NCBI GenBank assembly: GCA_937873695.1
Contig: CALMYL010000008.1
Coordinates: 361,369-425,368 of the forward strand
Source: an uncultured Ignavibacteria bacterium
Lineage (GTDB): Bacteria > Bacteroidota > Ignavibacteria > Tepidaquicellales > OLB5
DNA length: 64,000 nt
Direction of reading: 5' to 3'
This document shows, piece by piece, positions 13,322 through 35,129 of the stretch. The translations under genes were made by a program, and so were the position numbers. A model generated the notes under the pieces. The model saw only the letters and a program-made list of their open reading frames with translations. It was not told the DNA's origin and ran no database searches. Position 1 is the first letter of the stretch. Every line of letters starts with the position of its first letter.

Positions 13322-13978
13322 TTAGCTGTTTACAGCTATATAGGATTTCGTGAGGAAAAAGTACTTTTCTTTAATTATCCTGCAGCCTCGAAAATGATTT
13401 TTTAGTTCTTTTAGCTTTAATAAGGAGTTTTCTTGAAGAAGCCTTTGGGCTTCTGCGCTGTTCTGGCACTTTTTAAACCATCCCATATCGAAGTTTAGCA
13501 GAAAAAACATCTTAACTGATTTCGGCATAAACTGAAAACATGGGAATAAAAAATGCGGCTCAAAAGGAAAGTAGAAGCTTGGAGTCTGAACGAAATATTT
13601 CTTGCCAACACGTTTTATCTCATCTGCCATCTTCTGCCGGTTTTCTTTCAAAGGAATGTGCTCTATAACAGAATTTGAAAATACAACACCAAAACTGGCT
13701 GTTTTAAATTGCGATAGATCCGCAGCGTTGCCTGCTATGAATTTCAGATTTTTCGAACTACCGGGTCCCAAATCTGTAAGATTCAGGATAGTTATGAAAT
13801 AATCACTGTTATCTATTATACCCATCTGCTTCCAGAAATCAAAAGTACCTCCTACATCAAGTATAGTAACAGGCGGTGGAACATCTTTTGTGTACTCCAG
13901 GAAATTTCTGAATCTTTTTCTGCGAAACTTGTTTGCAAGGGAATCACTATCAGTATTATCAAGCAGTTTCTTAAACAC
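13322..13978 (-). CDS. Class I SAM-dependent methyltransferase
   Basis: 218 residues, beginning with GTG three bases after the TAG of the upstream gene and preceded by AGTAGG, so it is probably translationally coupled. The SAM-binding motif I is ILDVGGTFDFW (about residues 39-49). An acidic strand end and the post-motif FSNSVIEHI (about 107-115) follow, as in methyltransferase type 11 / UbiE-like enzymes. It is the last gene of the long glycan operon that begins at 30081. A substrate cannot be named; modification of a sugar or lipid carrier of the same pathway is an inference from context. Confidence 0.8.
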   Translation of the reverse strand: MFKKLLDNTDSDSLANKFRRKRFRNFLEYTKDVPPPVTILDVGGTFDFWKQMGIIDNSDYFITILNLTDLGPGSSKNLKFIAGNAADLSQFKTASFGVVFSNSVIEHIPLKENRQKMADEIKRVGKKYFVQTPSFYFPFEPHFLFPCFQFMPKSVKMFFLLNFDMGWFKKCQNSAEAQRLLQENSLLKLKELKNHFRGCRIIKEKYFFLTKSYIAVNS

Positions 13979-13981
13979 AAC

Positions 13982-16669
13982 CTACTTAACTACTATCATT
14001 TTCTTAATATCAGTAAATTTACCCGCAGAAAGCCTGTAGAAATATACCCCGCTGGCAAAACCGGATGCGTTCCAAACCGCGCTGTATTTGCCCGGCCGCA
14101 AAGCTGAATTCACCAGTACGGCGGCAATTCTGCCGGTAACATCATAAATAACCAGCTCTACATCAGTGTCCACACCGGAAGGTATATCAAAATTAATGGT
14201 TGTAACAGGATTAAATGGATTCGGATAATTATTATAGAGCATATATCTATCCGGTATTATGGAGCTGATCGGTTCTATCCCGATTACCTGAGTTGTAAAT
14301 CGCCAGGTTACCGACCATGGCCCGAATCCCCCCACATTGAATCCCCTTACACGCCAGTAATATACAGAACTTCCGCTCAAAAGACCTGAAGGCATAGCAG
14401 ACTGTGATGGCACTATCGTAGTATCAAGCAGAGTTGTATTAAAAAGTGAATCAGAAGAAACAAGCAGTTTATAACCTGCTGTACCGAATACATCGTTCCA
14501 ATCCAGTGTAAGATTGAGAGGCTGGTTAACCGCGCCGTTCGGCGGCGCAAGCAGTGTAGGCGCGGCAACAGGCGGTGATATCACAGTATGGAAGTGCCAA
14601 ACCTGCGAATAAGGACCCGTTCCGGCATTATTGGTTGCATTTACCCGCCAATAATATGTTGTATTATTGCTGAGTATTCCGCCCGGCACATTATATTGCG
14701 AAAAAGTTAAACCGCCGGCATTTATTAAATTAGGAATAGTAAATGTTGAATCAGTTGAAAGCTGCACCCTGAATGAAGCTGCATACTGAACGCTGTCCCA
14801 ATTCAATGTTGGAGTTGTTGATATATCCACTGCGCCGTTTGGCGGATCAACAAGTACAGGCGCAACGGGGGGAATAAGCAATGTCATAAACCTGAACGGA
14901 TTTGCCCACGGACCCGTGCCTATAGGATTTGTTGTTCTTACCCGCCAGAAATATGTCTGTACATTAGTAAGCAAGCCGGTTCTGACAGGAACCTGTGAAA
15001 TACTGAACCCTGAAGTATCCCATAATACTGTAGCAAATGTTGAATCCTGCGAGAGCTGCACCTGGTATGATGTTGCCGAAATATCTTCAACCCAGTCCAG
15101 CAGGGGAGTGAGGCTTACCCCTGTAGCAAAATTTGCGGGTGAAAGAAGTGCAGGCGCGGCAGGCATTCCAAGCAGCGTTGTGAAATTGAATATCGACGAC
15201 CATGGACCTGTGCCTGCAATATTTGTCGCGCTAACGCGCCAATAGTACCTGAAGTTATTCTGGAGTTGGGGTGTAACTAAATTTAGAAATGACTGCGTTA
15301 TGCCCGAGATGAATACCGGTGCATTTGAAAACGAAGTATCAAGTGCCGCTTGCAAAGTGTATGAATCAGCAGGTGAGGTGCTGTCCCAGTCAAAAAATGG
15401 CGTTAAAGAAACATTGGATGCACCATTTACAGGTGTGATCAGTCCCGGCGCGTTAGGAAGTGCAACAATCGTTCTGAAACTGAAGCTGTATGACCATGGA
15501 CCTATTCCGCCTTCACTTTGCCCCCGAACGCGCCAGAAATAACGTGTATTATTAAGCAGGCTGCCTCCGGGGATATTAATATTACTGAAGACTATCTGCG
15601 ATGAATCAACAACCGGCGAAGCATAAGCGGTATCTTCATCTATTTGAACCTGGTATGTTTTGGCAGTAGTTATTGAATCCCAGTCCAGCAGGGCATTCAG
15701 GTTCACATTCACTGCACCGTTAACCGGTGCGGTTAAAACCGGTGCACCCGGTATCTGGAATCCGCCGTTTACCGTAAAAATTATATTTCCTGCTGAGCCC
15801 GCAATGAAACCTGTTTGAACATTCACAAATGATACGCCGTTCCAGTCCTGACCCGCCAACGGGCTTACCTGTGATACCCAGCTTACCCCGCCATTTGTTG
15901 TGCGGATAATGAAATTACCATTGGCACTACCAGTGCCGGTGTTCGCGTTTAAAAAACTGAAATTAGTTATCCTGCCTGTTATCCCAGAAGTAAGTACACT
16001 CCAGCTTGTGCCGCCATCGGTTGATTTGATGAGTTTACCGCTTTCGCCTCCGGCGTAAACTACATTCGCGTTAATTACACTTAATGCAAAAAGGTGATCT
16101 GGTATGCCTGTTGTCATTGCTGACCAGTTTGCACCTCCATCAGTTGTTTTAAGTATTGTACCGCCATATCCTGAGACAAAACCTGTTGATGCATCAATGA
16201 ACTTTATATTGCTCAGGTTCTGAGTTGTACCTGATGTTAACGCCGTCCACACTGAGCCGCCGTTGGTGGTTTTATCCAATGCGCCGACGCCCGAGCAGGT
16301 ATATCCTGTATTTGCGTCAACAAAAAATATCCCGCGGTGCAGCCTTACAGGTCCGCCCGGGTCGACCCAGGTAGTGCCGCCGTTAGTGGTTTTATAAAAT
16401 ACAGCATCGCCGCTGATAAATCCAGTGGATGCGTTCAGCATAAATATTCCGTACAGGTTATCAGCCGGTACGGTTTGAGTGAACCAGTTTGAACCGCCGT
16501 TCGTGGTCTTTCGGATAGTACCCGAAAGTCCTATGGCAAAACCTGTGTTTGCGTCTGTAAAAAAAATATTCGTAAGCGGATTTGATGTACCGCTGGTCTG
16601 TGAAAACCACTGGGAATTAATTCCCGCAGTGGATATAAAGAATGATAATATTAATAATAAATATTTCAA
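13982..16669 (-). CDS. Secreted YCF48 propeller plus fibronectin-III-like repeat protein, T9SS sorted
   Basis: 895 residues. The signal peptide ends GINSQ. Residues ~20-310 hold six to seven YCF48/BNR repeats (IRKTTNGGSNW, ILKTTDGGANW, LIKSTDGGTSW). Residues ~310-800 hold five near-identical Fn3-like modules, each opening with A-P-x-L-x-x-P-x-N-G-A and closing with YFWRV/YYWRV...GTGPW. The sorting domain starts near 812 (NYPNPFNPVTTINFDIP, SGVYFYRL, MIVVK). The gene starts with TTG directly after the TAA of the C25 peptidase gene, with no spacer, so the two are probably translated in tandem. The architecture suggests a surface adhesin or scaffold; being co-transcribed with a PorU-type peptidase makes it a likely client of that enzyme (inference). 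Confidence 0.83.
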   Translation of the reverse strand: MKYLLLILSFFISTAGINSQWFSQTSGTSNPLTNIFFTDANTGFAIGLSGTIRKTTNGGSNWFTQTVPADNLYGIFMLNASTGFISGDAVFYKTTNGGTTWVDPGGPVRLHRGIFFVDANTGYTCSGVGALDKTTNGGSVWTALTSGTTQNLSNIKFIDASTGFVSGYGGTILKTTDGGANWSAMTTGIPDHLFALSVINANVVYAGGESGKLIKSTDGGTSWSVLTSGITGRITNFSFLNANTGTGSANGNFIIRTTNGGVSWVSQVSPLAGQDWNGVSFVNVQTGFIAGSAGNIIFTVNGGFQIPGAPVLTAPVNGAVNVNLNALLDWDSITTAKTYQVQIDEDTAYASPVVDSSQIVFSNINIPGGSLLNNTRYFWRVRGQSEGGIGPWSYSFSFRTIVALPNAPGLITPVNGASNVSLTPFFDWDSTSPADSYTLQAALDTSFSNAPVFISGITQSFLNLVTPQLQNNFRYYWRVSATNIAGTGPWSSIFNFTTLLGMPAAPALLSPANFATGVSLTPLLDWVEDISATSYQVQLSQDSTFATVLWDTSGFSISQVPVRTGLLTNVQTYFWRVRTTNPIGTGPWANPFRFMTLLIPPVAPVLVDPPNGAVDISTTPTLNWDSVQYAASFRVQLSTDSTFTIPNLINAGGLTFSQYNVPGGILSNNTTYYWRVNATNNAGTGPYSQVWHFHTVISPPVAAPTLLAPPNGAVNQPLNLTLDWNDVFGTAGYKLLVSSDSLFNTTLLDTTIVPSQSAMPSGLLSGSSVYYWRVRGFNVGGFGPWSVTWRFTTQVIGIEPISSIIPDRYMLYNNYPNPFNPVTTINFDIPSGVDTDVELVIYDVTGRIAAVLVNSALRPGKYSAVWNASGFASGVYFYRLSAGKFTDIKKMIVVK

Positions 16670-19600
16670 TTATTTCAATATGGCTAATTTCTGGATGGAT
16701 GTTTCGGTTTTGCCGCTGCCTTCAAGTATTAGCTTATACAAATATATGCCGTTTGCCATAGTCTCGCCATCGCCATCTTTGCCATCCCAGTATATCTGGT
16801 TAAAACCAACTCTTGCTGAACCCGTGACATCTCTCACATGCCTGCCGGCAACTGTGAATATTTTTATCAGGCAGGATTGCGGCGCTTCTGATGCAAAAAG
16901 ATCGAAAGTGAAATATGTATCACCCTGCATGGGATTTGGATAGTTGAAAAGATTGCGAACTGCAAAATCATAGCTTACATAGGCATTATCTATCAATGTA
17001 TCCCTGTTGCCGTCCTTATCTGTACCGTAATACTGCAGAAGGTGTGTGCCTGCCGATAGCTCAGGCTTGTAAAGCACGCTCGTTTTCAGATTGCCGTCAT
17101 TCACTGCGGTGAAAGTTATTTCCGGATTTTGCTGCCCTGCGTTATAATAATTTATCCTTCTGCCGTCAAGCTTAATGTAAATTCCTGTAGTATCTGTAAT
17201 GCTGTATTCAAGTTTACTCTCATCAAAGAATCTGAAAAGTATTTCAGGTTTTGCAGCTATAAGATCACCGTTTAAGATCTTTATCCCGTCATAAGTAACA
17301 TCTATTGCCGGACCCGTTGAATCACCATAAATTACAATATCCGTAAATGCAAAATTGTTGAAGGGGTAATAGTCGTTCTGGTTATTCAGCATCAATACTT
17401 CGAAATTAATATCCAGTGTATCAATTGTTGACTGAGGATTCTTTAACCCCTGTGTATTGAATGTTACCTGGGATAAATAATTGCTGTCAGGCATCAGTGG
17501 AGTATAAATTGTATCCTGCTTCAGGGTTACCAGTCCGTTATATGCATTTGCTGTCCATTTGTATACTATAGTACCTGCCGGAACAAACCCGATATTATGA
17601 TTCCTGACGCTTATTGTTACCTGTGCTCCTTCATCAACAACTGAATCGCTGCGGATAAATGAATAATTATCAGGTATAATCTCAGCAGGTGGTGTGTACT
17701 TGAAGTATAATGATCTGAATTCCGGGGATTCCAGTCCGGAAAGAGTATCAATTTCAATATTCGCTTTCAATCTGAGATCAGGGTAAACAAAACTATTTAC
17801 TGTATCAAGATTTGAGAATACATTTGAACTTAAATTTGTGTGCAACGGCACAGAATTTCCGAAAATGTCTATACCGGTTACATCAAAGTTTACTGAAGAA
17901 CCGCCCGGCAATGTCCTGTTCCATGAAAAATACTTCCATCTGTGTGCCGGCCCGATCGAAAAATTAATTGTGCCAAGAGTGCTAAGAAAGACCGGATTCA
18001 AATTGGCAAATGAAGGTGTCCAGACAAAATTTGAAGAATATCTGTGGAATTGTTCGGAAGCGTTCTGCGGCTGAGCATTAAGATATCCAATGAACGCATA
18101 TGAATCAAACTGGTCAAACCTGGTTACTGAATCGATCAAAGTAGCGCCAAACTGTCTTATCTTGTTTTTGGCAGTTTGTTTCAAACTATCAGAAACAGGT
18201 ACAAATGATGCCATCATTATCATAACATAATGTGTGGTATCAAATGTATTCATGAAATTCAGGACTGAATCAGATGAAGAAGCAGATGACATTCTGAAGT
18301 TTTTTATCTCCACTATGCCGCCTGTCAATTTCCTTACTTTTGCTATATTCAATCCGGTGTTTTGACCACCATCAGCATATGATGAAAACTGATTAATTAT
18401 GAAGTATGAAGCTTCGCTTCCGTTGCTGCCAAACGATTTTACTTCAAGCGAACCTGACGAATTATTCAGTTTAAACCCGCTGCCGGTATAATACAAGCCT
18501 GAATATGAATTAGCCGGAAATTGTCCCAATAACCGCGGATATAATGTTACGATCGAATCATTATTAACTGACTTTGATGAAGTCTGTACAATTGCGGGAT
18601 TGTAAACAAATTTATTTGTTTCAGACCAACCGGCGCTATCGCCATTAATTATTGCGTTGGTTCTCCAGTAGTAAACTTTGTTTGAATCAAGCAGCGGTAT
18701 ACGATAACGTACTTTATTGGCAACACCGCTTATACTACTGTTTGAATAATTCAGCAACAAAGTGTTAAATGAAGATGATGTATCAACCTGTAAAATTACT
18801 TTCACGCTGTTCCTCCGCAGATCAACCTGCGGATTCAAACCCACAAACTCTACGGAATCTTCAGCAATTACTGAATTATTTATTGGTTTTAAGGGAGTAT
18901 ATGAAATATTTCTCAGTGGAAGCGGCAGAACAATTACATTGTTCGATGGATCCTCATTCGGATAAATATTACCGTAATCTATCGTAGCCTTCAGTGAATA
19001 ATTCCCAAGAGTATCAATACTGAAAGTATATGACAGCGTATCGTAAATTTTAAAATTAACAATATTAGTATCTTTAAAACGGAACTGCTGTCCGTTTTTC
19101 AGTATCTCAAACCTGACCGGGCAATTAGGAACGAACAATCCGTAATTTTTAGGGAAAATTTTCCACGTAACTGTTTCACCAACAAGAGGGTACTGGTCTG
19201 TTATCCTGTAATCAGTTTGTCCAATCACAAATTCGGGTCCCGCAGGCAGCAGAAGTTTTGCCGCCGGGTCGCCCAGCAGGTTGTAACAATTAATCATATT
19301 ACGTACCTGGAAATTGGAAGTATCCGGAAGCATTCTGTTATTGGCAAATTTTATAAGTGAACCCAGTCTTCTGATAGTATCCTGAGATAACCCTATAAAT
19401 ACGTGCTTATTAATTTCATTGCCTGCCCCTGAAAAACTCCAGCCGGTTGTACCCAGAAATCCCAAAGCTCCCCGGTTAGGCGTGAACACAAATTTCTCGC
19501 CAAAGCTCCTGAAATTCGCATCGGCGTTTATTCCGGTAAAACACGTCATGCTCAGAACCAGTGGCAGACGGTTACCGTTTGAAAGCGTCTGAGGTTCTTC

Positions 19601-21538
19601 AAGTCCCAGCTCCCAGTTTTGGCTGGCTGCGTGACCGATGAAATTAACAATCAGGCCGCCGCGGTTTATGGCATTTTTTATTGAATCGGCATAGTTGAAT
19701 GTTATGTACCCCGCTGAATCATTCCGGTAAATCTTTTCTGCTATGCCTGATATCGGCGCGGGTGTGATATAGTTATTTACAAGCTCGTTCGATTGCGTCT
19801 GGTACTGTATCTGCTCAATTCGGTTCGGTCCGCCGGTTATCATATTAAAATTCTTCCACCAGCTTTGCGGCGGTTCATTTTCATAGGCAATTATCTTGTT
19901 TACCATATCCTGTGCTTCCTGCTGCGTATATGCGGGCAGCCTCCCTATGGCAGCTTCGTGAAAATATGTGAAACCATTCAGATTGAAATTAACAAAATAC
20001 CCGTCACTTGGCGGATTGCCGTAAACTGGCACCATGTTCCTGTAATAACTGTTAGTTAGCCTGTTATTCTTCGGGTCAAGCGAGCCTCTGCCTAACAAAA
20101 CAACATATCCGGGTCTTGGAAGCTGCCAGTTATCATAAGCAAATTTTACAAATCTTCTTACCGCAACCGGACTTTCCATCCCGAAATTGAAGATATCAAT
20201 TATATCATCAATTGGTGCTTTAATTGAACGGAAATTATCTCTGCTCTGCCTGTATGAACGAAGCTGTTCAGCCTGAGATTCAAAAAGACGGTTGTAAATC
20301 ACAATGTAATCGGCGCCGTTTGATGAAGCTGTAAGGTTCAATACCTGTCTGGAATGGCTTCTAAACGGGCGCTGTGTTATTGCCTGGTTATAAATTTCAA
20401 AATCACCGTTCTGCTTGCCGGTAAAAAACAATGTGTCGGCTTCGTTGCTTATACTGGTTATTTTGATATTGTTCTTTATATCGTAAATTGAATAGGGGGC
20501 TGATGAATTGAAACCGGTTACTCTGAATACCCTACTGGATGTATCAGTGGAATTAAGTGTTATCCTGCAATGAGCGTTAGTAAACCTGAACTGCTTTGGG
20601 TATGTAAGTTCCACCAGATCAAAATAAAGACTCGGCGTAGCGTTTGAGTTCGAAAAAGTAGGTGTATAAGTTACAGTTACAGTATTCTGTGAGGTGTTAA
20701 ATAGACTGCTCTGGAATGTTACCGTAGTATCAAATCTTTCATAGTCATTTTTTGCCAGAGTTGTTATGTTGGTTGAGTTAAGTGTAAGTACAAGCTTGTG
20801 CTCATTAAAGGAAGTATCCCTGGAATTGGGATACGCGAAGATACGGAATGTGCAATTTACGGGGATTGTATTCAGCTGCGGCAATGAGAACACGCGGCTC
20901 ACAGAGTAACCTTGTGCAGCGGTCAGGTTCCGCCAATACCAGCCTTCACCTGATATTTTTTCGTTGTTAAAGAACCTGAAATCAGTATTCGCGTTAATTG
21001 TCTGCCCCAGGCTGTAAACTGAATCTACTTCAAAGTGTATCTTTTCAAATGAATAATTCAGAGGGTACTCCGTACCCGCGTTATAAGATGACAGCGTATA
21101 CCTTAAGCCGTTGCTGCCATCCCATCCTATCCAATATACACTTGTATCGGAATACAGGTCATTATACTCATTTGTGGAATAATCAAATACAGTAGGGCCG
21201 AAACTGGCGAGATACGTAGTTGTTAAGCCTCCGTAATTTCTCTGTCCGTAGAAATCTATATAATCATTCGCATCAAAAGAGCCATCCTGCTCGCCTTCAA
21301 AATATACCGGGATTTCGCTGCCTTTGTAATAAACTTTTACTGTACGGGGATCTATGTTAGAAGTACTTATTCCGGAATTTGTAAACTCATTACGGGTTAT
21401 CCTGTTAATCCCATCAGCTGAAACATACATTTTCAGGTATGTTTTATTGGGCGTTATCCAGTTATAATTCTGGCTTAGTGCTGCACTGGCTAAAAGCAGC
21501 GTTAGTAATAAACAATAACGTAATTTCAGGGCACTCAT
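16670..21538 (-). CDS. Gingipain-like C25 cysteine peptidase, PorU-type sortase candidate
   Basis: 1622 residues with a signal peptide (1-22, ending ALSQ). The N-terminal region resembles the PorU family prodomain (YKGSEIPVYFEGEQDG, YIDFYGQRNYGG). The C25 domain lies at about 400-780. Its likely dyad is His636 in NFIGHAASQNWELG and Cys666 in LSMTCFTG, 30 residues apart, similar to gingipains. Beta domains follow, and an FlgD-like/T9SS C-terminal module starts near 1535 (NYPNPMQGDTYFTFDL, ANGIYLYKL, LAILK). PorU removes sorting domains and links proteins to anionic LPS in Porphyromonas; this protein is longer than the ~1160-residue PorU. It may instead be a secreted C25 protease that is itself a T9SS client. 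Its ATG overlaps the TGA of the upstream WecB-like gene (ATGA), placing it firmly in the glycan operon. Confidence 0.83.
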   Translation of the reverse strand: MSALKLRYCLLLTLLLASAALSQNYNWITPNKTYLKMYVSADGINRITRNEFTNSGISTSNIDPRTVKVYYKGSEIPVYFEGEQDGSFDANDYIDFYGQRNYGGLTTTYLASFGPTVFDYSTNEYNDLYSDTSVYWIGWDGSNGLRYTLSSYNAGTEYPLNYSFEKIHFEVDSVYSLGQTINANTDFRFFNNEKISGEGWYWRNLTAAQGYSVSRVFSLPQLNTIPVNCTFRIFAYPNSRDTSFNEHKLVLTLNSTNITTLAKNDYERFDTTVTFQSSLFNTSQNTVTVTYTPTFSNSNATPSLYFDLVELTYPKQFRFTNAHCRITLNSTDTSSRVFRVTGFNSSAPYSIYDIKNNIKITSISNEADTLFFTGKQNGDFEIYNQAITQRPFRSHSRQVLNLTASSNGADYIVIYNRLFESQAEQLRSYRQSRDNFRSIKAPIDDIIDIFNFGMESPVAVRRFVKFAYDNWQLPRPGYVVLLGRGSLDPKNNRLTNSYYRNMVPVYGNPPSDGYFVNFNLNGFTYFHEAAIGRLPAYTQQEAQDMVNKIIAYENEPPQSWWKNFNMITGGPNRIEQIQYQTQSNELVNNYITPAPISGIAEKIYRNDSAGYITFNYADSIKNAINRGGLIVNFIGHAASQNWELGLEEPQTLSNGNRLPLVLSMTCFTGINADANFRSFGEKFVFTPNRGALGFLGTTGWSFSGAGNEINKHVFIGLSQDTIRRLGSLIKFANNRMLPDTSNFQVRNMINCYNLLGDPAAKLLLPAGPEFVIGQTDYRITDQYPLVGETVTWKIFPKNYGLFVPNCPVRFEILKNGQQFRFKDTNIVNFKIYDTLSYTFSIDTLGNYSLKATIDYGNIYPNEDPSNNVIVLPLPLRNISYTPLKPINNSVIAEDSVEFVGLNPQVDLRRNSVKVILQVDTSSSFNTLLLNYSNSSISGVANKVRYRIPLLDSNKVYYWRTNAIINGDSAGWSETNKFVYNPAIVQTSSKSVNNDSIVTLYPRLLGQFPANSYSGLYYTGSGFKLNNSSGSLEVKSFGSNGSEASYFIINQFSSYADGGQNTGLNIAKVRKLTGGIVEIKNFRMSSASSSDSVLNFMNTFDTTHYVMIMMASFVPVSDSLKQTAKNKIRQFGATLIDSVTRFDQFDSYAFIGYLNAQPQNASEQFHRYSSNFVWTPSFANLNPVFLSTLGTINFSIGPAHRWKYFSWNRTLPGGSSVNFDVTGIDIFGNSVPLHTNLSSNVFSNLDTVNSFVYPDLRLKANIEIDTLSGLESPEFRSLYFKYTPPAEIIPDNYSFIRSDSVVDEGAQVTISVRNHNIGFVPAGTIVYKWTANAYNGLVTLKQDTIYTPLMPDSNYLSQVTFNTQGLKNPQSTIDTLDINFEVLMLNNQNDYYPFNNFAFTDIVIYGDSTGPAIDVTYDGIKILNGDLIAAKPEILFRFFDESKLEYSITDTTGIYIKLDGRRINYYNAGQQNPEITFTAVNDGNLKTSVLYKPELSAGTHLLQYYGTDKDGNRDTLIDNAYVSYDFAVRNLFNYPNPMQGDTYFTFDLFASEAPQSCLIKIFTVAGRHVRDVTGSARVGFNQIYWDGKDGDGETMANGIYLYKLILEGSGKTETSIQKLAILK

Positions 21539-22287
21539 TGTGCCAATTTACGCATTTTTGTACTAATAATTCTATATAAAAATAGTGGGTTCCCGATGAT
21601 ATATCTCCTGAAATACTTCACAGGATTTCCCAGAAATCTCCATAACCACTCTAACCCTACAGAGCGCAGAAAAGCAGGGCCTCGACTTTTGCTGCCCGCA
21701 AAAACTTTTATGCCTTCACCAACGCATAATATGACTTTACTGTTTATTTTGTCCCTGTTTGCCGCTGCCCATTGTTCCTGCTTTGGAGTACCAAGACCTA
21801 CTATCAGAATATCAGCAGAATTACGGTTGATATCTTGAAGCACCTCTTCATCTCTGAAATTGTAACCTTCATGTGTCCCCGTCACTATCAATTCCGGGTT
21901 CACTTCAGAAATCCTGCTTAGTGTGCCGCTGTCATGTCCTAAAAAGTAAAAAGTAAATTTATTCCTGATTGCTTCATTTATGAGCAGGGGATACAGATCG
22001 CTTCCCGTGAATTTACTTGATGCTGTAAGCGGCTTATTCAGGATCCTGGCCGCGATACGTATACCTGAGCCATCGGGATGTATAATATCAAACTTGTTTA
22101 GCCAATTCTGCAGTTCAGGAAATTCATATAATGAGTTTATCGAATTTGCGTTTGCGTATGCTATTGCCGTTTGCCTGCCTTCTAAAATACTTTTCTTAAT
22201 AATAGCCAGCAGTCCTGAGTACCCTATATTACTTATACTGATACCCCTGATTACCAATCCATTTGTATTTACAGGCAAACTACTCAA
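21535..22287 (-). CDS. WecB/TagA/CpsF family glycosyltransferase (GT26)
   Basis: 250 residues, starting at TTG with AAGG about 7 bases upstream. Family signatures are in order: ANANSINSLYEFPELQNWL, the HPDGSGIRIAARIL segment carrying the likely catalytic Asp, IVGLGTPKQEQWAAANRDKI, and the C-terminal WLWRFLGNPVKYFRRYIIGN basic/aromatic membrane-association region. These enzymes transfer an N-acetyl-aminosugar (ManNAc or ManNAcA) to an undecaprenyl-linked acceptor on the cytoplasmic face during surface polysaccharide synthesis. The gene overlaps the downstream C25 peptidase gene by 4 bases and follows the GT4 gene by 2 bases. The precise sugar is unknown. Confidence 0.87.
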   Translation of the reverse strand: MSSLPVNTNGLVIRGISISNIGYSGLLAIIKKSILEGRQTAIAYANANSINSLYEFPELQNWLNKFDIIHPDGSGIRIAARILNKPLTASSKFTGSDLYPLLINEAIRNKFTFYFLGHDSGTLSRISEVNPELIVTGTHEGYNFRDEEVLQDINRNSADILIVGLGTPKQEQWAAANRDKINSKVILCVGEGIKVFAGSKSRGPAFLRSVGLEWLWRFLGNPVKYFRRYIIGNPLFLYRIISTKMRKLAQ

Positions 22288-22289
22288 AA

Positions 22290-23363
22290 TTACCTTAATA
22301 ATGTTTTGTAAAGGTTTTCGATCTTCGGAATTATGAATTCCTGGGTATAATTGTTAATAACATCCCTGTGCAGGTTTACGGCGCAAGCTTCAGCGAATTT
22401 TTTATTGTTCTTAAAATGCATGATCTTTTCTGCCAGTTCTTCTTCATTACCGGCACTGAACAACAAACCGTTTTCTCCTTCGTTTATGAGTTCACCAATA
22501 CCATCTACGTTAGCCCCAATAAATGGGACGCGGTGCAGCCCTGATTGAAGCATAAAGTTAGGGAAAGGGTCCCGGGTTGAAGGAAGTACGCATATATCCG
22601 CTATCAGGAAATACTGCAGCAGATTTTTCTGCGGCACAATGATCTCCACGTTCAGATCATTTTTAGCTATATATCTCCGGTAATCTATATCATTGTTGCC
22701 TTCACCTACCAGTATCAGCCCTATTTTTTCCTTTTTCAGGATATTCAGTGCTTTTAGAAGCGTTTCAAAATCTTTATCGTTATGAAATCTGCCTATGGCA
22801 AGAATGACGAAAAAATTACTATGCTCTCTGGCGCGCGGAGATATTATCTCGAGTTCGTGAATTTCATCTGTATCGGTAAAATTGTTTATAACAGATACTT
22901 TCTTCCTGCTGAGTCTGAACTTTTTCAGCAGCATTTCTTCTACCGAATTACTTACTGCTATGATGCGGTCAGAACGGTATTCTATATTATATTTCCGTTT
23001 AACTATGCTCAATGAAGTGAAAACAGATGCAGGCCTGTTCTTCTTTATCCGCTTAATTGACTGAAGGGCGATAACTTCAGCAAGCCTGTGATGTGTGTGC
23101 ACTACGCGTATATCATTTTTAATGATGTATTGCTTAACGCGTGAAATGTTACCGGCAATAGAGATAGGATTTTTTGATTTGAGCCCTTTTAATATCCGGT
23201 AATTTATTCCTGATTCTTCCAGCCTCTCAATTGAATCGCCGCCATTGGTTATTACATGTACTTTATGCTTTTTGCCAAGATACTTGGAAAGAAGGTAAAC
23301 GTAATAAGACCTTCCGCAGGCGTAATTAAAATCAGGAGTAATATGAAGAATATTTAATTTCAA
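22290..23363 (-). CDS. GT4-family glycosyltransferase
   Basis: 357 residues with the GT-B layout. The N-terminal acceptor domain opens HITPDFNYACGRSYYVYLL. The C-terminal donor domain has FFVILAIGRFHNDKDFETLL, and the donor-site loop DICVLPSTRDPFPNFMLQSG includes the position corresponding to the E-x7-E region. This is followed by GANVDGIGELINEGENGLLF. It lacks a signal peptide or TM helices and is expected to be cytoplasmic, adding a sugar to a lipid-linked oligosaccharide. It starts at TTG, seven bases after the preceding gene. Donor and linkage cannot be inferred. Confidence 0.85.
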   Translation of the reverse strand: MKLNILHITPDFNYACGRSYYVYLLSKYLGKKHKVHVITNGGDSIERLEESGINYRILKGLKSKNPISIAGNISRVKQYIIKNDIRVVHTHHRLAEVIALQSIKRIKKNRPASVFTSLSIVKRKYNIEYRSDRIIAVSNSVEEMLLKKFRLSRKKVSVINNFTDTDEIHELEIISPRAREHSNFFVILAIGRFHNDKDFETLLKALNILKKEKIGLILVGEGNNDIDYRRYIAKNDLNVEIIVPQKNLLQYFLIADICVLPSTRDPFPNFMLQSGLHRVPFIGANVDGIGELINEGENGLLFSAGNEEELAEKIMHFKNNKKFAEACAVNLHRDVINNYTQEFIIPKIENLYKTLLR

Positions 23364-23369
23364 ATTATT

Positions 23370-25010
23370 TCAAAATATCTTTCTGAAACCCAGTTTCCCG
23401 GCAACAAAACACTCAATTTCTGAAGATAAGATCGCAAGATTAAGTTTTATCGGTTTATCAACAGTATTGAATTCAGTGAATTCTACAGATATATCTTTGT
23501 TCCTGAAACCGGTCCTTATGCGTTCACTGTTATAACCTTCAATATAAAAAAACTGTTTTGGCGCGGTGCATTTTATCTCAAATTCTGTAGATGAAATACT
23601 CTTAACTTCAAACTCTGCTCCTATAGAGCTTTCCTGGAAAGCAGCGGATTGAATTACATCGTTTATTGTATCATTAATTATGTACTGTTTATTCTTCCAG
23701 AAATTGTATGCACCTGTCATTTTGTCAAACATCAATGTCTGTTTATAACGGCCCGGGTTTCCTATGATCACCATTCTTTTTTGCGGGTCACGATCAGTTG
23801 AAATAAGATTATTAACATTAATCAATGCCTTGCTGTAAGAAGTATTCCAGTCCAGAACCGTTCCGCCTGACCAAAGACACCAGAAAAGAACGGTAACTGT
23901 AAATGAGACCCTGAGAACCTTCCTGTTGAGCTTCAGGCTCAGCCTGCGCTGCTGGCTGTATATATACATAACGAATATGCAAATCACCGCAAAAGGCAGC
24001 AGGATCATCTGGGGTCTGATATACCCCACAATCGCGTATGGAGTGATCAGAACAAAGAAAAATGAGGCTAACTGACCAATAATCCTGTATATATCTGTTC
24101 TTACCGCAGACCAAAGCAAATAAAACCCGGAGCCGTACAGCACAAGCAGATATAGAAGGATAAGTTTGTTATCGTTTCGAAGCTGGAAATTGAGAGTTAT
24201 AAAATCCATGGGAATGGAGAGCGCAATAAGAGCTCTTGCAAATACACCCGGGGCATTGCTCAGCGGAAATGACTGGTAAAGAGTCGCTATTTCTGTCATG
24301 TTATTCCCCAGTATGATTATCCTGAATACGAAATATGAAACAAGTATAACCGCAAATGATATCACAAGAGGGAGTGTTTGTTTTATACCAGGTTTACCCT
24401 TTCTGAAATATTCAATGAGGAAAATTACTGCCGGAAAAGTTATGGCAAGCTCTTTGGTAAACAATGCTATCAGAAAAGTGAAAAGTGAAATGTAAAAGAA
24501 TAGCTTTTTTCCTGAATCGCTGTAAAGAAGGAACAGCAGCACTGAAATAAGATAAAAAAAACAGCAAATAAGATCTACCCTTGCAGCCATCCAGCAGATA
24601 TTATTGATGTTATTGGGGTATACCAGAATTGCTGCCGAGCTGACCAGCGATACAGATGCCCTTTTGGTTAAATAAAATACCGTTAGCCCGGCGGTAAATG
24701 CAATGAATATAAGCAGTACAAGGTTTTGTATCCTGAACCACAGGAAATTATCAGTAGAAAAGCCAAGCCACGAACTGATGTTTATGCTTTTTTCGAGGGA
24801 AAGATAGTAAACAGGCCTTATGTGAAACGCGTTTGTGAAAGGGAGCGCTCCGGTAAGCTTTTGGTAAAAAGTTGAGTTCAGCGCGTCGTAAATATTAAGG
24901 TAATCATCTGAAACCAGGCCAATATTGTAAAACCCGAGGAAATGCATTAATGCCGCATAAAGCGCGTACATTCCAAGTGAATAATAGATGAACTTCCTGG
25001 ACTCTCTCAA
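23370..25010 (-). CDS. Polytopic membrane protein, GT-C-like
   Basis: 546 residues with about ten to eleven hydrophobic helices between residues ~10 and ~370 and a soluble C-terminal domain from about 385. The first periplasmic loop has an acidic pair (GLVSDDYLNIYDAL), as in GT-C glycosyltransferases that use polyprenyl-phosphate sugars. Later loops carry AARVDLICC and FTKELAITFP, which recall bacterial mannosyltransferase-like membrane proteins. Its place inside a glycosyltransferase operon supports a role in adding a sugar on the periplasmic side. A Wzy-type polymerase is the main alternative, and no motif decides between them. The start is TTG; no strong ribosome-binding site was seen. Confidence 0.7.
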   Translation of the reverse strand: MRESRKFIYYSLGMYALYAALMHFLGFYNIGLVSDDYLNIYDALNSTFYQKLTGALPFTNAFHIRPVYYLSLEKSINISSWLGFSTDNFLWFRIQNLVLLIFIAFTAGLTVFYLTKRASVSLVSSAAILVYPNNINNICWMAARVDLICCFFYLISVLLFLLYSDSGKKLFFYISLFTFLIALFTKELAITFPAVIFLIEYFRKGKPGIKQTLPLVISFAVILVSYFVFRIIILGNNMTEIATLYQSFPLSNAPGVFARALIALSIPMDFITLNFQLRNDNKLILLYLLVLYGSGFYLLWSAVRTDIYRIIGQLASFFFVLITPYAIVGYIRPQMILLPFAVICIFVMYIYSQQRRLSLKLNRKVLRVSFTVTVLFWCLWSGGTVLDWNTSYSKALINVNNLISTDRDPQKRMVIIGNPGRYKQTLMFDKMTGAYNFWKNKQYIINDTINDVIQSAAFQESSIGAEFEVKSISSTEFEIKCTAPKQFFYIEGYNSERIRTGFRNKDISVEFTEFNTVDKPIKLNLAILSSEIECFVAGKLGFRKIF

Positions 25011-25043
25011 ATTATTCGAACTTTAAAATTCTGTTGGTATAAA

Positions 25044-25994
25044 CTAATCTAGTAATGAAGCAAGCTCCTTCTTGAAGAAGCTCTTATTTTTGAAACAACT
25101 ACCCAGCCTGTACCTGAAATGTGAATTTATAAACTTAAAGAAATATTTATCAGGTAAAAATGTAGTAAAATATGCAGTAAGGTTCTTCAGAGAAAATGAG
25201 TTTTTGAAGTAGCCTCTTGAGCTTTTCCTTGAACCGTAAAAATAGTTAAGCCATGCAGCCACAGATGCCCAGTAAAAATGATCACCTTTTGATTTTGAGT
25301 CTACCATTTTCCGGAATGCGTTGGTATTAAGCATGTCATACAGGTTATCGCGGCTGCCAGAAAGTGTTCTGGAGTTGGCGCGCAATCTGGTATATACCAG
25401 ATATTCGGGCATATTTGCCAGTTTAAAATCGTCCCGAAGCCTGTAAAACAGCTCAAAATCTTCATTGCTGTTTAGCTCCTCGCTGAACTGATACCTGCTG
25501 AAGATCTTCTTCCTGCACATCAAAGCTGATTGATTCAACGGATTGTGCAGGTCAAGGTACTTGTATATTTCTTCATGTTCCAGCGGCTCTGCAAGCAAAA
25601 AAAGTATTTTTGCGGGATCTCTGAAATAAACTGACCATGATGAAAGTATATCAATATCCGGATTCTTTGCCAGGTATTGCACCTGCTTTTCCAGCCTGCT
25701 GGGGATGTTCAGGTCATCAGCGTCAATCCTCGCGATCCACTCATTGCTGCACAAAGTAATACCGTGGTTCAGCGCTGATGCTGTACCCCTGTGCCCGGTT
25801 TTATGATAAATTATTCTCTTGTCACTAAAACCCCTGATAATTGTTTCTGTATTATCTGTTGAACCATCATCTATAATTATGAACTCAAAGTCTGTGAAAG
25901 TCTGGTTAAGTACGCTTTTAACAGCCTCCCGGATATACTTTCCGCAGTTATATGCCGGCATCAGCACCGATATTTTTTTTATCACTTCAGGCAT
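25044..25994 (-). CDS. GT2-family glycosyltransferase
   Basis: 316 residues with the classical GT-A start ISVLMPAYNCGKYIREAVKS, then FIIIDDGSTDNTE and the metal-binding DxD equivalent in WIARIDADDLNIPSRLEKQ. Further on, SNEDFELFYRL contains the usual ED of the catalytic-base region. No TM segment is predicted, so it is likely peripheral at the inner membrane. It overlaps the downstream end of the upstream GT4 gene by 13 bases, indicating co-translation. Substrate unknown. Confidence 0.88.
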   Translation of the reverse strand: MPEVIKKISVLMPAYNCGKYIREAVKSVLNQTFTDFEFIIIDDGSTDNTETIIRGFSDKRIIYHKTGHRGTASALNHGITLCSNEWIARIDADDLNIPSRLEKQVQYLAKNPDIDILSSWSVYFRDPAKILFLLAEPLEHEEIYKYLDLHNPLNQSALMCRKKIFSRYQFSEELNSNEDFELFYRLRDDFKLANMPEYLVYTRLRANSRTLSGSRDNLYDMLNTNAFRKMVDSKSKGDHFYWASVAAWLNYFYGSRKSSRGYFKNSFSLKNLTAYFTTFLPDKYFFKFINSHFRYRLGSCFKNKSFFKKELASLLD

Positions 25995-27049
25995 TGTTCA
26001 TACAGTGATAAGTGTTTATCTATCATAACGGGAATTGTAAATTCCTTTATCGCAAACTCGTAAAATGACTGTGAAAGGGGAATGTAATCTGAGTAATTTA
26101 TTATTACTTCATTTAGCAGCATGCTCAGCTTATCTGAACTGTTATTTCTGTATATCAGCCCGTTCACACCATGCTTTATAACATCTTCTGCCCCTGCAAA
26201 ATCTGAACTTACAACAAGCGTATTTGTTGCTGCTGCTTCGGTCAGAATTGCCGGGAAACCTTCATTGGGTGAACGGGATGAATTGACAAGAACGTGCACT
26301 GAATTCAGGAAAGTATAAATATCAAGCACCTTTCCGGTAAAAGTTATTGAGCTGCCTAATTTGTAATTCAGATCTTTAAGTTCATCCTCAAGTTCGCCTT
26401 CACCGGCAATGATGAACTCAGCTTTTTCTCTTAAATCCGCAGGAAGTTTTTTTACTGCATTTATATATATATCCAGACCTTTGCCATGTGTGAATCTTGA
26501 TGCCGCAGCGATCTTAAGTTTGCCGTTATTGACTTTGGGCTTAACATTCTTAACTACAGGTATTCCGCATCTTATGAAAGCAATATCGCTGCCCGATGCT
26601 ATTCGGTTTTCAAGCAGGTACCTCTGAATGTGTTCATTTATCGCAACATATTTTTCAGCATTGAAGTGTTTAAGCCTTCCCATTTCCTGCAGGATACCGT
26701 GATTTGTCTGGATTGTTGGCCTGCGGGTAAGCTGAGACGCCCTTCGGGCGGCAGCTGCGCCGTAATGATAGTGTGAATGCAGAATTTCGATATCATTATT
26801 TCTTATAAAGCGTGTCAGGTAATTTATTGCTGAAATAAACCCTGAAAAGCTGCGGTTTATATGAAGGAATCTTTCATCAGATATAATGTTCACATCAATA
26901 TCACTGAAGCGGTTTATGCCATTGCCGCCGCCGCAAATTATCCATAATTTTACTTTCCCGGTTGATGTGAGTCCACGTGATAAATGAAGCAGGTGGTTGG
27001 TAACACCGCATGTGTATCTAAGCTCATTTGCCAGCAGAAGTACATTCAT
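25982..27049 (-). CDS. GT4-family glycosyltransferase
   Basis: 355 residues, GT-B fold. The N-terminal domain begins LLANELRYTCGVTNHLLHLS. The donor half has KIAAASRFTHGKGLDIYINA, FIIAGEGELEDELKDL, and the E-x7-E region SSRSPNEGFPAILTEAAATN followed by GVNGLIYRNN. The ATG start overlaps the TGA of the upstream gene (ATGA). Acts in the cytoplasm on a lipid-linked intermediate, as judged from family and operon. Confidence 0.87.
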   Translation of the reverse strand: MNVLLLANELRYTCGVTNHLLHLSRGLTSTGKVKLWIICGGGNGINRFSDIDVNIISDERFLHINRSFSGFISAINYLTRFIRNNDIEILHSHYHYGAAAARRASQLTRRPTIQTNHGILQEMGRLKHFNAEKYVAINEHIQRYLLENRIASGSDIAFIRCGIPVVKNVKPKVNNGKLKIAAASRFTHGKGLDIYINAVKKLPADLREKAEFIIAGEGELEDELKDLNYKLGSSITFTGKVLDIYTFLNSVHVLVNSSRSPNEGFPAILTEAAATNTLVVSSDFAGAEDVIKHGVNGLIYRNNSSDKLSMLLNEVIINYSDYIPLSQSFYEFAIKEFTIPVMIDKHLSLYEQCLK

Positions 27050-28164
27050 TTCACAGCTTCCCTGTAGAGTTCCTCGTACATTTCAGTTACATACTCCCAT
27101 CGCAGTTCCCGTGCGGTATCTGCTGCCGCGCTGCTGATCCTGTTTTTCTCCTCTTGCGGAATATTGCAAAGATTGTTGAGTATGGCAGCAAGAGTTTTGC
27201 TGTCAGTATAATCAAATGTAAATCCGTTTATACCGCTATCTATGTACCGGCTTATCCCTGTCTGTGATGTAACCACAGGTATTAACCCGGCAGCCATTGC
27301 TTCTGCGGAAGAAATCGAAAATGTATCGTACTCGTTCAGAGAAAGAAACACATGCTTATCAGCATAAAATCGCGGTAATTCCGCTGAAGGCATCATCTTA
27401 TGTGTGAACAAGGCTACATACTCAGATTGCGGTATATTTATGTTCTCATCAGTTATCAAATGTATTTCAATTGGTAATTCAATTGCGCCAAGCGTCCTTT
27501 TAAGCAGCTCTATCCCGGACCGGTTCAGTTCATTCCTGTAATGTAATACTGCTTTGATAATTCGGGTTTTGCTCCTGTCATCTGATTTCATGAAGAATGC
27601 TTCTGATACTCCGTTAGGAAGTAAAACTGACTTTTTTTCATCAATACTGTAATATTTACACGCTATATCCATAGCAGGCTTAGAGGGAAAAATTAATTTG
27701 TCGGAATACTTCAGAAAGATCTTTTCACAAAAAGCATCTTTAAATCTGTTGTAAGCGGATAATTCTTTGAAACTGGAATTTTCATGCTGAATAATGCCGT
27801 GTGAATTATATATTACCTTCACCTTAAATAACATTTTATAAATGAAAAAAATTACGGCAAACCGTTCAAATGTTATTAAATGTATAACTTCAGGCTGCCT
27901 TCTGCGAACCTCAGGCAATAACCTGAATAACCCGAGAGTAATTATTTTGCCGCCTTTTTCTAAGGCTTTGCCAAAAAGTTTTTGAAAAACTGAAAATTTC
28001 CTTCCATCAAAAAAATACTGAATAAACACTGAACTGCAATTCTTGGTGTGCTCATCAAAAATGCTTTTTGCCGCGTTCCCCGGGCCTGAAATGATCCCGG
28101 TATCAGGATACCTGCCTGCGAACAGAACACTTATTTTACCCTCGGTTTTTTTCAAATCTTTCAA
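27046..28164 (-). CDS. GT4-family glycosyltransferase
   Basis: 372 residues. The opening KISVLFAGRYPDTGIISGPG is typical of the acceptor domain. The donor domain has SLNEYDTFSISSAEAMAAGL, which carries the E-x7-E-like motif and the usual A-M-A-x-G-x-P context, then SGINGFTFDYTD. It starts with TTG within the last codons of the upstream methyltransferase gene (29-base overlap); a later start is possible. It overlaps the downstream GT4 gene by 4 bases. Sequence divergence from the other two GT4 proteins suggests a different linkage. Confidence 0.84.
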   Translation of the reverse strand: MKDLKKTEGKISVLFAGRYPDTGIISGPGNAAKSIFDEHTKNCSSVFIQYFFDGRKFSVFQKLFGKALEKGGKIITLGLFRLLPEVRRRQPEVIHLITFERFAVIFFIYKMLFKVKVIYNSHGIIQHENSSFKELSAYNRFKDAFCEKIFLKYSDKLIFPSKPAMDIACKYYSIDEKKSVLLPNGVSEAFFMKSDDRSKTRIIKAVLHYRNELNRSGIELLKRTLGAIELPIEIHLITDENINIPQSEYVALFTHKMMPSAELPRFYADKHVFLSLNEYDTFSISSAEAMAAGLIPVVTSQTGISRYIDSGINGFTFDYTDSKTLAAILNNLCNIPQEEKNRISSAAADTARELRWEYVTEMYEELYREAVK

Positions 28165-28801
28165 TGATCTTTTTCAGTCCCAGCCTGTGTTTCAAAACAT
28201 TCTTAAACCTGAAATACTTCCCGTATTTTTCAGTGAATTTTATCTTTTCATTTGAAATCAGTATCACGCTGTATTCGCGCTGGGTCAGGTCGTAAAATGT
28301 TTTTATCTTGTGATGCTTATACCCTGTAAAATCATTGTTATACCATATGCTTTTATGTTCCTCATATGGATTTTCATCCGTGCCTTCCTGTGCCCAGTTA
28401 TTGCCGATCGGAATATTGATGAGCACATAATTTCCCTTCCGGAGGGCAATTTCGATCATCCTTTTGCCGTCTTCTTTATCGAGATGCTCAATTACATCCC
28501 CGAAATTTATCAGATCATAGTGTTTGCCGGTTCTTTCAAGATACGCTGCCGCGTTTTCTGTAAATATCTCGCTGTAAAAATACTTGTGATACTCCTTAAT
28601 GTATCCCGGGTATATCTCAACGCCGTCAATAACCCTCTGCCATTTACCGTTGTATCTTCCGCCATCCCAAATTTCCAGAAATTCCCTGAAAAGAATTCCC
28701 CATCTGCCGAAACCAACACCAACATCAAGTATCGATGAAGGATCAAGCTTTCTGATAAGCCCAATATTGTATGAAATATTCTGCCAGTTGGATGTTCCCA
28801 T
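28136..28801 (-). CDS. Class I SAM-dependent methyltransferase of the glycan operon
   Basis: 221 residues. Motif I is SSILDVGVGFGRWGILFREF (about residues 19-38). An acidic motif II-like GVEIYPGY follows, and LINFGDVIEHLDKEDGKRM corresponds to the post-I/motif III region. No TM helix. It begins at ATG 8 bases after the flippase gene and overlaps the following GT4 gene. A sugar O-methyltransferase, capping or decorating the repeat unit, is the simplest inference from context. Confidence 0.8.
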   Translation of the reverse strand: MGTSNWQNISYNIGLIRKLDPSSILDVGVGFGRWGILFREFLEIWDGGRYNGKWQRVIDGVEIYPGYIKEYHKYFYSEIFTENAAAYLERTGKHYDLINFGDVIEHLDKEDGKRMIEIALRKGNYVLINIPIGNNWAQEGTDENPYEEHKSIWYNNDFTGYKHHKIKTFYDLTQREYSVILISNEKIKFTEKYGKYFRFKNVLKHRLGLKKIIERFEKNRG

Positions 28802-28809
28802 ACTATTGT

Positions 28810-30081
28810 TTACGCCGTTTCAGTTGTTTTAGACTGCAAGTTAACCAATATTTTCTTCAGGTAATACCACTCAAGGGCAAATATAAAAAATTCAGTAACT
28901 ACTGTTAATACTGCTGATGCTGTTATTCCGTATTTGGGGATCAAAACAAAATTCAGTACTGCATTCATTATCAATGCGTATAGCGTAATAAACATCACTA
29001 TTTTAAAATACCCCATTCCGTTTAGAATTATTCCTGTGAGATTGTTAAGTCCCATAGCAATTATCCCAATTGAAAGTATGCGCAGAATATTTACTGAATT
29101 TTCAAACTTGCCGGTATAAATGACAGTTATGATAAATTCAGCGAAAACAAATAGTATCACTGAACAAATGATACATATAATGCTTATCAGCGTTGCATGT
29201 TCTTTAAGGAATTCCCCGATAGAAGCCGGCTCCCTGTGTAATTCGGCAACCCTTGTAAAACCGCTCACAAGCAAAAAGGAAAATGCTATTGAAGAGGACT
29301 TAAATAAACCGTAAGCAATACTGTAGAACGCAGCCTCATCAAATCCGCGAAGTTTGGAGATCAGCAATATATCGATCTTATCGTAGAGCAGGTTGAAGAT
29401 CACTGCGATGCCAAGCGGCAATGAAATTGCCAGTATCTTTTTTATTCCTGAAAATGAAAAGTATTTGACCGAAATTCTGATATCATTTTTGCGAAGTAAC
29501 AATGCGGATATTAACAGGTTAAGCCCTGTCCCTGCAAACATAACTCCCAGCAGAATATTAACACTCATTGAATACAGGTATATACCCGGGATAAATACTG
29601 CTAAAATTAAAACCCTTGGAAGAACGAAAGACTGGAACTGCTTTTTGTATTCATTGATACCCGATAATGTTTTGTTATTAACAGTCACCAAAAAAGAAAC
29701 ATACATCATAAGTGAAATGATGATGAACAAAGTATATGGAATATCACTGTATACGACCAAAACTGCTGCTGAGCCCAGAGCGAAATATATTACAATTAAC
29801 AAGGAACCAAGAATGAATACCCGGCTGTATATTTCAGAAGCGATCTGCCTGTTTACCGCAATTTCACGCTGAATGAATATAGGCAATCCAAGATCAAAAA
29901 TTGATACAAGAACTATGCTTAAGGTAATAAGAGTTACAACCTGGCCATATATAACCGCCGTGAAATTGCGAGCCAAAAGCATCATAATGATAAATGAAAA
30001 GATCTTATCACTTAGATTGAGCAGGAATATATATTTGCTTCCCGCCAGTAAGCCTTTATATTTACTTAAATTAATTGCCAA
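28810..30081 (-). CDS. Oligosaccharide flippase (Wzx/MATE-MVF superfamily)
   Basis: 423 residues with about 12 hydrophobic helices spanning almost the entire length. The N-terminus LAGSKYIFLLNLSDKIFSFI and the helix-4 region LPIFIQREIAVNRQI are typical of the polysaccharide biosynthesis (RfbX/Wzx) family. The protein would move undecaprenyl-linked oligosaccharide across the inner membrane. It is the first gene of the 17-kb glycan operon; a 69-base gap separates it from the ABC permease upstream, with no clear terminator, so read-through is possible. The apparent start is TTG without a strong ribosome-binding site. Confidence 0.85.
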   Translation of the reverse strand: MAINLSKYKGLLAGSKYIFLLNLSDKIFSFIIMMLLARNFTAVIYGQVVTLITLSIVLVSIFDLGLPIFIQREIAVNRQIASEIYSRVFILGSLLIVIYFALGSAAVLVVYSDIPYTLFIIISLMMYVSFLVTVNNKTLSGINEYKKQFQSFVLPRVLILAVFIPGIYLYSMSVNILLGVMFAGTGLNLLISALLLRKNDIRISVKYFSFSGIKKILAISLPLGIAVIFNLLYDKIDILLISKLRGFDEAAFYSIAYGLFKSSSIAFSFLLVSGFTRVAELHREPASIGEFLKEHATLISIICIICSVILFVFAEFIITVIYTGKFENSVNILRILSIGIIAMGLNNLTGIILNGMGYFKIVMFITLYALIMNAVLNFVLIPKYGITASAVLTVVTEFFIFALEWYYLKKILVNLQSKTTETA

Positions 30082-31026: not shown

Positions 31027-31030
31027 ATTT

Positions 31031-32077: not shown

Positions 32078-32078
32078 T

Positions 32079-33578: not shown

Positions 33579-33650
33579 TATAATTTTGCTTTTTTAATAA
33601 TTTAATAATTTCAGAAAGAAAAAACGGGCGTTATTTCTGCTCCGACAAAA

Positions 33651-33710
33651 TCTTAGCGGCTAAAGCCGGCTACTGCTACCGTAAAAAACCACGACCTGAA
33701 AGTCGTGGCA
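33651..33710. repeat. Composite two-hairpin palindromic element (copy 1)
   Basis: CGGCT-AA-AGCCG at 33657-33668 and the hairpin CCACGACC/AGTCGTGG at 33689-33708. The same pair recurs at 40280-40330 and 41500-41551 in the other orientation. It sits between the BMP lipoprotein gene and the ATPase gene of one transporter operon, so it is probably transcribed. Confidence 0.75.
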
Positions 33711-33765
33711 ATTATTATATTTTAAGAAAATTTGTAATTTGGTTTTTGTTATTTGATATTTGAAT

Positions 33766-34782: not shown

Positions 34783-34819
34783 TATATACCCCTGATTCTT
34801 ATCAAAAATCGATAGTTCT

Positions 34820-34845
34820 CTATCCCAAACTCCAGTTTGGGATAG
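34820..34845. repeat. Perfect hairpin upstream of the BMP gene
   Basis: CTATCCCAAACT and its exact complement AGTTTGGGATAG are separated by CC. The hairpin lies about 40 bases before the GTG start of the lipoprotein gene, in its likely leader or promoter. Confidence 0.7.
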
Positions 34846-34942
34846 TAAATACTGCAATCAATTGAATTAAACCTCTAATTTTTATCAAAATTACAGCATT
34901 TTTTTTACAGGTGCAATTACATAATGATTGAAAGAACAATTA

Positions 34943-35060: not shown

Positions 35061-35129
35061 CGGTGTTCAATCCATTAACATTCTTTTAACAGATAATTGT
35101 TATATTTGTAGTTCAAACCAAATTATTTT

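Follow-up and report, generated by a model that had tools for sequence, protein, structure and literature searches.

A PorU2-type C25 protein encoded in a surface-glycan operon of an Ignavibacteria bacterium may be a second T9SS sortase dedicated to its own glycan

A run of glycan genes in the genome of an Ignavibacteria bacterium also encodes a C25 peptidase and a T9SS cargo, and raises the question of whether a single operon can supply both a surface glycan and the enzyme that would attach protein to it. In the A-LPS system, the acceptor for cargo is a linking sugar carried by an O-polysaccharide (PMC13086638, PMC7468200). The original prediction held that the operon makes a dedicated anchor glycan together with a PorU-type peptidase that uses it and one cargo protein. 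We followed up this proposal in the window, by which we mean the whole 64,000-nucleotide stretch of DNA that was analysed, from contig C8 in a draft genome of 3.78 Mb and 30 contigs, and in related genomes.

The operon occupies positions 13322-30081 and its proposed tight packing was borne out, with eleven ORFs on the minus strand whose spacing in ORF coordinates ranges from a 29-nt overlap to a 33-nt gap (overlaps of 4-29 nt, gaps of no more than 33 nt). It begins with a Wzx-type flippase (28810-30081; PF01943 at 55.7 bits and PF13440 at 46.8 bits, 11 hydrophobic segments), which leads the gene order in all complete family loci. There follow a 221-aa putative SAM methyltransferase, MT2 (28136-28801), two GT4-type glycosyltransferases, GT4a (27046-28164; PF00534, 46.2 bits) and GT4b (25982-27049; PF00534, 100 bits), a GT2-type glycosyltransferase (25044-25994; PF00535, 121.5 bits), a 546-aa polytopic membrane protein (23370-25010) and a third GT4-type enzyme, GT4c (22290-23363; PF00534 at 82 bits, PF13439 at 70.6 bits). 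The remaining genes encode a WecG/TagA/CpsF-family glycosyltransferase (21535-22287), the 1622-aa C25 protein (16670-21538), an 895-aa T9SS cargo (13982-16669) and a SAM-dependent methyltransferase, MT1 (13322-13978; PF08241, 32.2 bits), the last being conserved in position in most family loci. Pfam and NCBIfam models agree with the predicted flippase and five glycosyltransferases, assigning one Wzx, three GT4, one GT2 and one WecG/TagA/CpsF protein. With regard to the two predicted methyltransferases, MT1 is supported by its model, whereas MT2 has no Pfam or NCBIfam match; its name, like the GT-C label proposed for the 546-aa protein, comes from sequence appearance because neither protein matches any family. 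Both are conserved in position, MT2 at 67-77% identity within the family, and the 546-aa protein, with eight predicted transmembrane segments, is a candidate GT-C enzyme or polymerase.

The glycosyltransferase that precedes the C25 protein had been described as WecB-like; the models identify it instead as WecG/TagA/CpsF, exceeding both cut-offs (147 bits against 27.4 for PF03808 and 99.2 against 69 for TIGR00696) and falling below the equivalog cut-offs for ManNAc- and ManNAcA-transferases (104 bits against 350 and 71 against 323). It is the only PF03808 match found in the genome by profile search, and the same model is matched by all 20 WecG proteins sampled, namely that of the window and 19 upstream neighbours of PorU2-type genes. 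The predicted ATGA overlap, in which the stop codon of wecG meets the start codon of the C25 gene, was found at 21535-21538 on the minus strand; the same 4-nt overlap is exact in most family members and at loci L098, L101, L102, L105, L106 and L134, an arrangement that suggests translational coupling of the two genes.

Conservation of the gene order, raised at the outset as a check on the proposal, proved complete in the relatives whose contigs span the cluster, with all eleven genes in the identical order in seven of seven (G014, G004, G007, G009, G013, G006 and G001). Cut contigs in the family agree as far as they reach, the exception being G008, which has no MT1 behind the cargo gene. Since this order is kept among spanning relatives at protein identities of 40-85% to the window products, the arrangement is more than chance. 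Mean identity to the window rises from 47% for GT4a, the fastest-evolving member of the operon (40-59%), to 73% for the C25 protein, the best-conserved member in the family comparison, which is present in 15 of 15 family genomes at 62-85% identity. Scans of the operon for consensus promoters and terminators gave chance-level results and do not delimit a transcript; a search for defence systems returned no match. Adjoining the operon in the window (30151-36674), and in most family genomes, are genes for a BmpA-like lipoprotein, a nucleoside-uptake-like ABC transporter and, divergently, a 5'-nucleotidase-like protein. We place these transport-like genes outside the unit because several relatives have opposite-strand genes between them and wzx.

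What kind of protein, then, is the C25 member? It comprises a signal peptide, a PorU-type N-domain, a C25 domain (residues 411-762; PF01364, 231.8 bits), Ig-like domains, an ILEI domain and a PorU-type CTD. The predicted catalytic residues His-636 and Cys-666 are indeed intact; they do not vary in an alignment of 19 relatives, and a wider alignment has the corresponding His and Cys in 50 of 50 diverse PorU2-type proteins. Against the NCBIfam models the protein scores 349.7 bits to PorU (NF033707, model positions 5-736), below the curated cut-off of 420, and 390.5 bits to PorU2 (NF052324, residues 9-867 on positions 7-879 of 879), narrowly missing the cut-off of 450. It is hence nearer to the PorU2 model, the reverse of the genome's canonical PorU (181.7 bits to PorU2 against 922 to PorU), and a class relative in the same WecG context, L161, does exceed the PorU2 cut-off (457.5 bits against 450). 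A further protein, that of the KSB1 locus L152, also passes the canonical PorU cut-off (428.4 bits against 420).

The N-terminal half was modelled with AlphaFold2 (pLDDT 90), and its top Foldseek match is PorU (PDB 6za2, E of 4e-30), with gingipains behind; the fold match spans model residues 1-746, and VIA gives a Z of 22.4 over 584 residues. For the catalytic domain alone the closest structural alignment is to gingipains, with a Z of about 42. Against a profile built from the CTDs of eleven canonical PorU proteins, 27 PorU2-type CTDs score 70-92 bits, nine cargo CTDs 18-29 bits and the CTD of the window protein 80 bits; in P. gingivalis, PorU is reported to keep its CTD (PMC10202324). These features show common ancestry with PorU and an intact active site, and leave transpeptidation as a putative activity. 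Compared with canonical PorU (NF033707; P. gingivalis, PDB 6za2), the window protein has in common the signal peptide, the N-domain, the C25 His and Cys and the PorU-type CTD, and the job proposed for it is the same, namely to cleave a CTD and pass the cargo to a glycan on the surface. It differs in its length (1622 against about 1160-1390 aa), its extra Ig/CARDB and ILEI domains, its score under the NF033707 cut-off and the position of its gene, which lies in a glycan operon and not beside porV. With PorU2 (NF052324) it shares full-length similarity and size class, although it scores below the cut-off and four loci above that cut-off (L186-L189) adjoin a PorV-like gene.

The original prediction was to be refuted by a separate canonical porU near T9SS core genes together with evidence that the C25 protein is only a secreted protease. 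The first of these was found. The genome encodes three C25 proteins, and one, on contig C30 (41796-45149), scores 922 bits against NF033707 (cut-off 420) and is followed directly by porV. This rules out the window protein as the genome's only PorU and exposes the claim to that extent: the PorU-type character and the link to a glycan operon stand, and the PorU of this genome is the C30 copy. Given that canonical porU adjoins porV on another contig, the window protein is an additional, PorU2-type paralogue; a separate canonical PorU is likewise present in nearly all of the 15 family genomes. The genome also encodes a PorV match (111.3 bits) and a SprA/Sov translocon (916.5 bits with neighbours included in the frame, a frame of 2208 codons).

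The second, that the protein acts as a protease or adhesin at the surface, displayed with the polysaccharide layer or trimming it, and is no transpeptidase, we consider quite improbable. Such a role would be in keeping with the gingipain-type proteases included in C25, one gingipain-like example of which, carrying a P-domain and a CTD of cargo type, is the third C25 protein of this genome (contig C6; L005:8876-11893, G000), and with a score below the threshold of both sortase models. However, the N-domain, the catalytic fold and the CTD are all of PorU type, with PorU as the top Foldseek match, so the protease-only alternative is unsupported and the predicted sortase-class identity is upheld.

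The cargo encoded behind the C25 gene was also as predicted. The 895-aa protein combines Ycf48/BNR-like repeats (PF14870) and fn3-like domains (PF00041) with a type A sorting CTD, which scores 38.7 bits against TIGR04183 (cut-off 23), and its gene adjoins the C25 gene in all family loci that reach that far. A second, much larger T9SS cargo of 2278 aa is encoded elsewhere in the window (3141-9977); PVN/KENPVN and charged residues abound in a low-complexity stretch within it. Linkage to the cargo gene is limited to the family, whereas linkage to WecG is class-wide.

We examined this wider linkage among 85 non-identical full-length PorU2-type genes, 83 of which have their upstream neighbour in view. 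At the order level PorU2-type proteins occur in 42 of 44 genomes, and the sister family often has two or more, in tandem. The gene directly upstream is WecG in 44 of the 83 (on the same strand in 41); in 17 it is a further PorU2-type gene and in 7 a GT2 or GT4 gene. At three KSB1 loci it is a WecA-like gene, among glycosyltransferases and Wzx, and at L122 a methyltransferase, with WecG behind it; L155 and L183 have glycosyltransferase-like neighbours and L147 a Wzy/ligase-like gene alongside. About eight of the 83 have no adjoining glycan gene. Among the class-level loci L172-L185, picked by PorU2 score alone, the majority terminate in Wzx...WecG-PorU2. The canonical control, 18 porU loci from the same groups plus that of the window genome, has WecG upstream in none of 19 and porV next in all 19; Fisher tests of the contrast give p of about 1e-5 and 2e-4, values that ignore shared ancestry and are illustrative only. 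In P. gingivalis the sortase gene is not known to belong to the glycan locus. Next to the canonical porU of the window genome is a GT9 gene, 243 nt upstream and with no Wzx operon, and a similar-sized gene precedes canonical porU in its close relatives. The linkage between PorU2-type genes and glycan operons is real, non-random and evolutionarily old.

Some of these operons differ in content from that of the window. PorU2-type pairs at L135, L144, L119, L082-L083 and L085 lie behind operons with very long GT2-matching proteins, the longest of 2474 aa, that look like fusions of several glycosyltransferases. TPR, DUF4292 and M23-peptidase genes precede the class-level operons at L174:1151-7444 (by Pfam) and L178:1623-5415 (by matching ORF sizes), and the L174 operon includes a UDP-galactopyranose mutase, which suggests galactofuranose in some of these glycans.

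In a tree of PorU2-type proteins the grouping follows operon type and tandem position, with modest support at some deep nodes: in WecG-type pairs the first copies mostly fall into clades apart from the second copies, the two copies in multi-GT2-type pairs separate likewise, and one clade consists of six stand-alone genes with no glycan operon nearby. Several genomes carry all three kinds, and the tree fits a set of specialised paralogues. These patterns also bear on the idea that the protein is a genuine T9SS sortase in an operon for a general surface polysaccharide (O-antigen or exopolysaccharide), with co-location serving coordinated expression and any LPS anchor being used. Ordinary O-antigen clusters would behave as the sister family does, where glycosyltransferase content near PorU2 varies and PorU2 stays; Wzy_C/WaaL candidates are encoded elsewhere in the genome; and the A-LPS of P. 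gingivalis is itself an ordinary O-polysaccharide plus a short linker (PMC13086638). Yet canonical porU has no such linkage, PorU2 clades track operon type and tandem position, and the overlap with wecG suggests coupling at translation, and we therefore regard a general polysaccharide as an unlikely explanation.

Linkage of a different kind is seen in Cytophagia-type genomes, where PorU2 lies beside a PorV-like gene and not beside glycan genes; in four phylum-sample genomes whose PorU2 exceeds the curated cut-off (L186-L189), the gene before PorU2 is PorV-like. PorU2-type proteins might accordingly handle a special cargo subset that a PorV-like shuttle of their own picks out, with the link to glycans secondary, and the window does encode a second PorV-family protein (PF19572, 46.8 bits; 40466-41461), whose neighbour is a TonB-dependent receptor (41717-44554). 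However, no PorV-like gene lies within the Ignavibacteria PorU2 operons examined, and that of the window is 10 kb off with unrelated genes between, which leaves a shuttle-based explanation very improbable.

The ILEI domain of the window protein (residues about 1027-1184) is a further departure from canonical PorU, in which Pfam finds no ILEI match, and is found by Pfam in 43 of 45 PorU2-type members. Foldseek on the C-terminal half of the protein returned mostly strings of Ig domains, and we therefore used only the VIA domain match for this half, in which the closest fold to the ILEI domain is the POMGnT1 stem (Z of about 20 over 146 residues). Both the POMGnT1 stem and FAM3C are carbohydrate-binding, and the contacts to GlcNAc are made by Arg-129, Asp-179 and Arg-207 (PMC9802357). 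The likeness to POMGnT1 stem/FAM3 domains lies in the fold and the Pfam match; the difference is that the Arg/Asp/Arg triad is replaced by Thr/Val/Phe in the window protein, so that GlcNAc binding exactly as in POMGnT1 is not supported. The triad is kept in KSB1 (L152, L153 and L154) and in some class-level, deep-branching proteins, and is lost in Ignavibacteriales. A glycan-reading role for the domain is plausible across the PorU2-type family on the basis of these alignments, and the window domain may share it.

Together these data suggest how the operon might work. The five glycosyltransferases, one of WecG/TagA type, and the methyltransferases would build a lipid-linked glycan in the cytoplasm. 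There is no initiating transferase in the operon, and a search for a WecA-type enzyme gave a single PF00953 match in the genome, which resembles MraY by sequence; initiation would hence probably fall to a PF02397 enzyme encoded elsewhere. Wzx would flip the glycan and a Wzy_C/WaaL-type protein encoded elsewhere would ligate it to LPS, while the PorU2-type protein would be exported via the T9SS. At the cell surface this sortase would cleave the cargo CTD and join the new C terminus to the glycan of the same operon, the canonical PorU-PorV pair probably serving the general cargo set. Every step beyond gene content is inferred, including the transpeptidase chemistry, the choice of acceptor sugar, a reading of the glycan by the ILEI domain and the 895-aa protein as a preferred cargo.

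Known systems offer partial parallels. As with A-LPS and the Wbp/Vim pathway of P. gingivalis and T. forsythia (PMC7468200, PMC13086638), the cargo C terminus would sit on a lipid-linked glycan that is made by dedicated glycosyltransferases, flipped and ligated to LPS, but no Wbp/Vim linking-sugar genes were recognised in the window operon; a FemAB-like match elsewhere in the genome is sub-threshold (74 bits against a cut-off of 260). Exosortase/PEP-CTERM loci in exopolysaccharide clusters (PMC7468200) likewise place a C-terminal sorting enzyme inside a polysaccharide operon, although exosortase is an unrelated inner-membrane enzyme and the protein considered here a C25 enzyme of the T9SS outer surface.

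On balance we think it rather probable that the window C25 protein is an additional T9SS sortase, one that serves specifically the glycan made by the operon encoding it. Against this reading stand the sub-cut-off scores, the six stand-alone genes, the PorV-like context in Cytophagia-type genomes, the lost GlcNAc triad, the GT9 gene near canonical porU and an operon with neither an initiating transferase nor recognisable Wbp/Vim genes, and our confidence in it is moderate with these taken into account. The PorU-type peptidase of the original prediction and its tie to a glycan operon are retained, as one PorU-type protein beside another, and the anchor and cargo roles are proposed ones. More speculatively, and we would put it no higher than possible, T9SS bacteria of the Ignavibacteria and KSB1 may use several sortases at once, each encoded with its own glycan and specific for it (WecG-type, multi-GT2-type and stand-alone), with a FAM3/POMGnT1-like reader replacing or joining the PorZ delivery protein.

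In partial coverage of the literature we found no paper on PorU2 by name and no report of a PorU-type gene in glycan operons, including those of Ignavibacteria; the closest idea that we found in print links vim-type genes to exosortase loci (PMC7468200). As coverage was partial, we make no claim to priority for the linkage.

Detailed knowledge of how a glycan is chosen for T9SS cargo is confined to a few oral pathogens. The overlap of a sortase gene with the last glycosyltransferase gene of a glycan operon, in a linkage that is class-wide, supplies natural glycan-sortase pairs for comparing and testing acceptor specificity. The findings also give a FAM3/POMGnT1-stem-like domain a place in a bacterial enzyme for protein sorting. 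The data suggest a possible role for the PorU2 family, in NCBIfam merely a "putative" sortase, and with it a testable idea of matched sugar-and-sortase pairs; if this is true, chemically different glycans on one cell would anchor different cargo.
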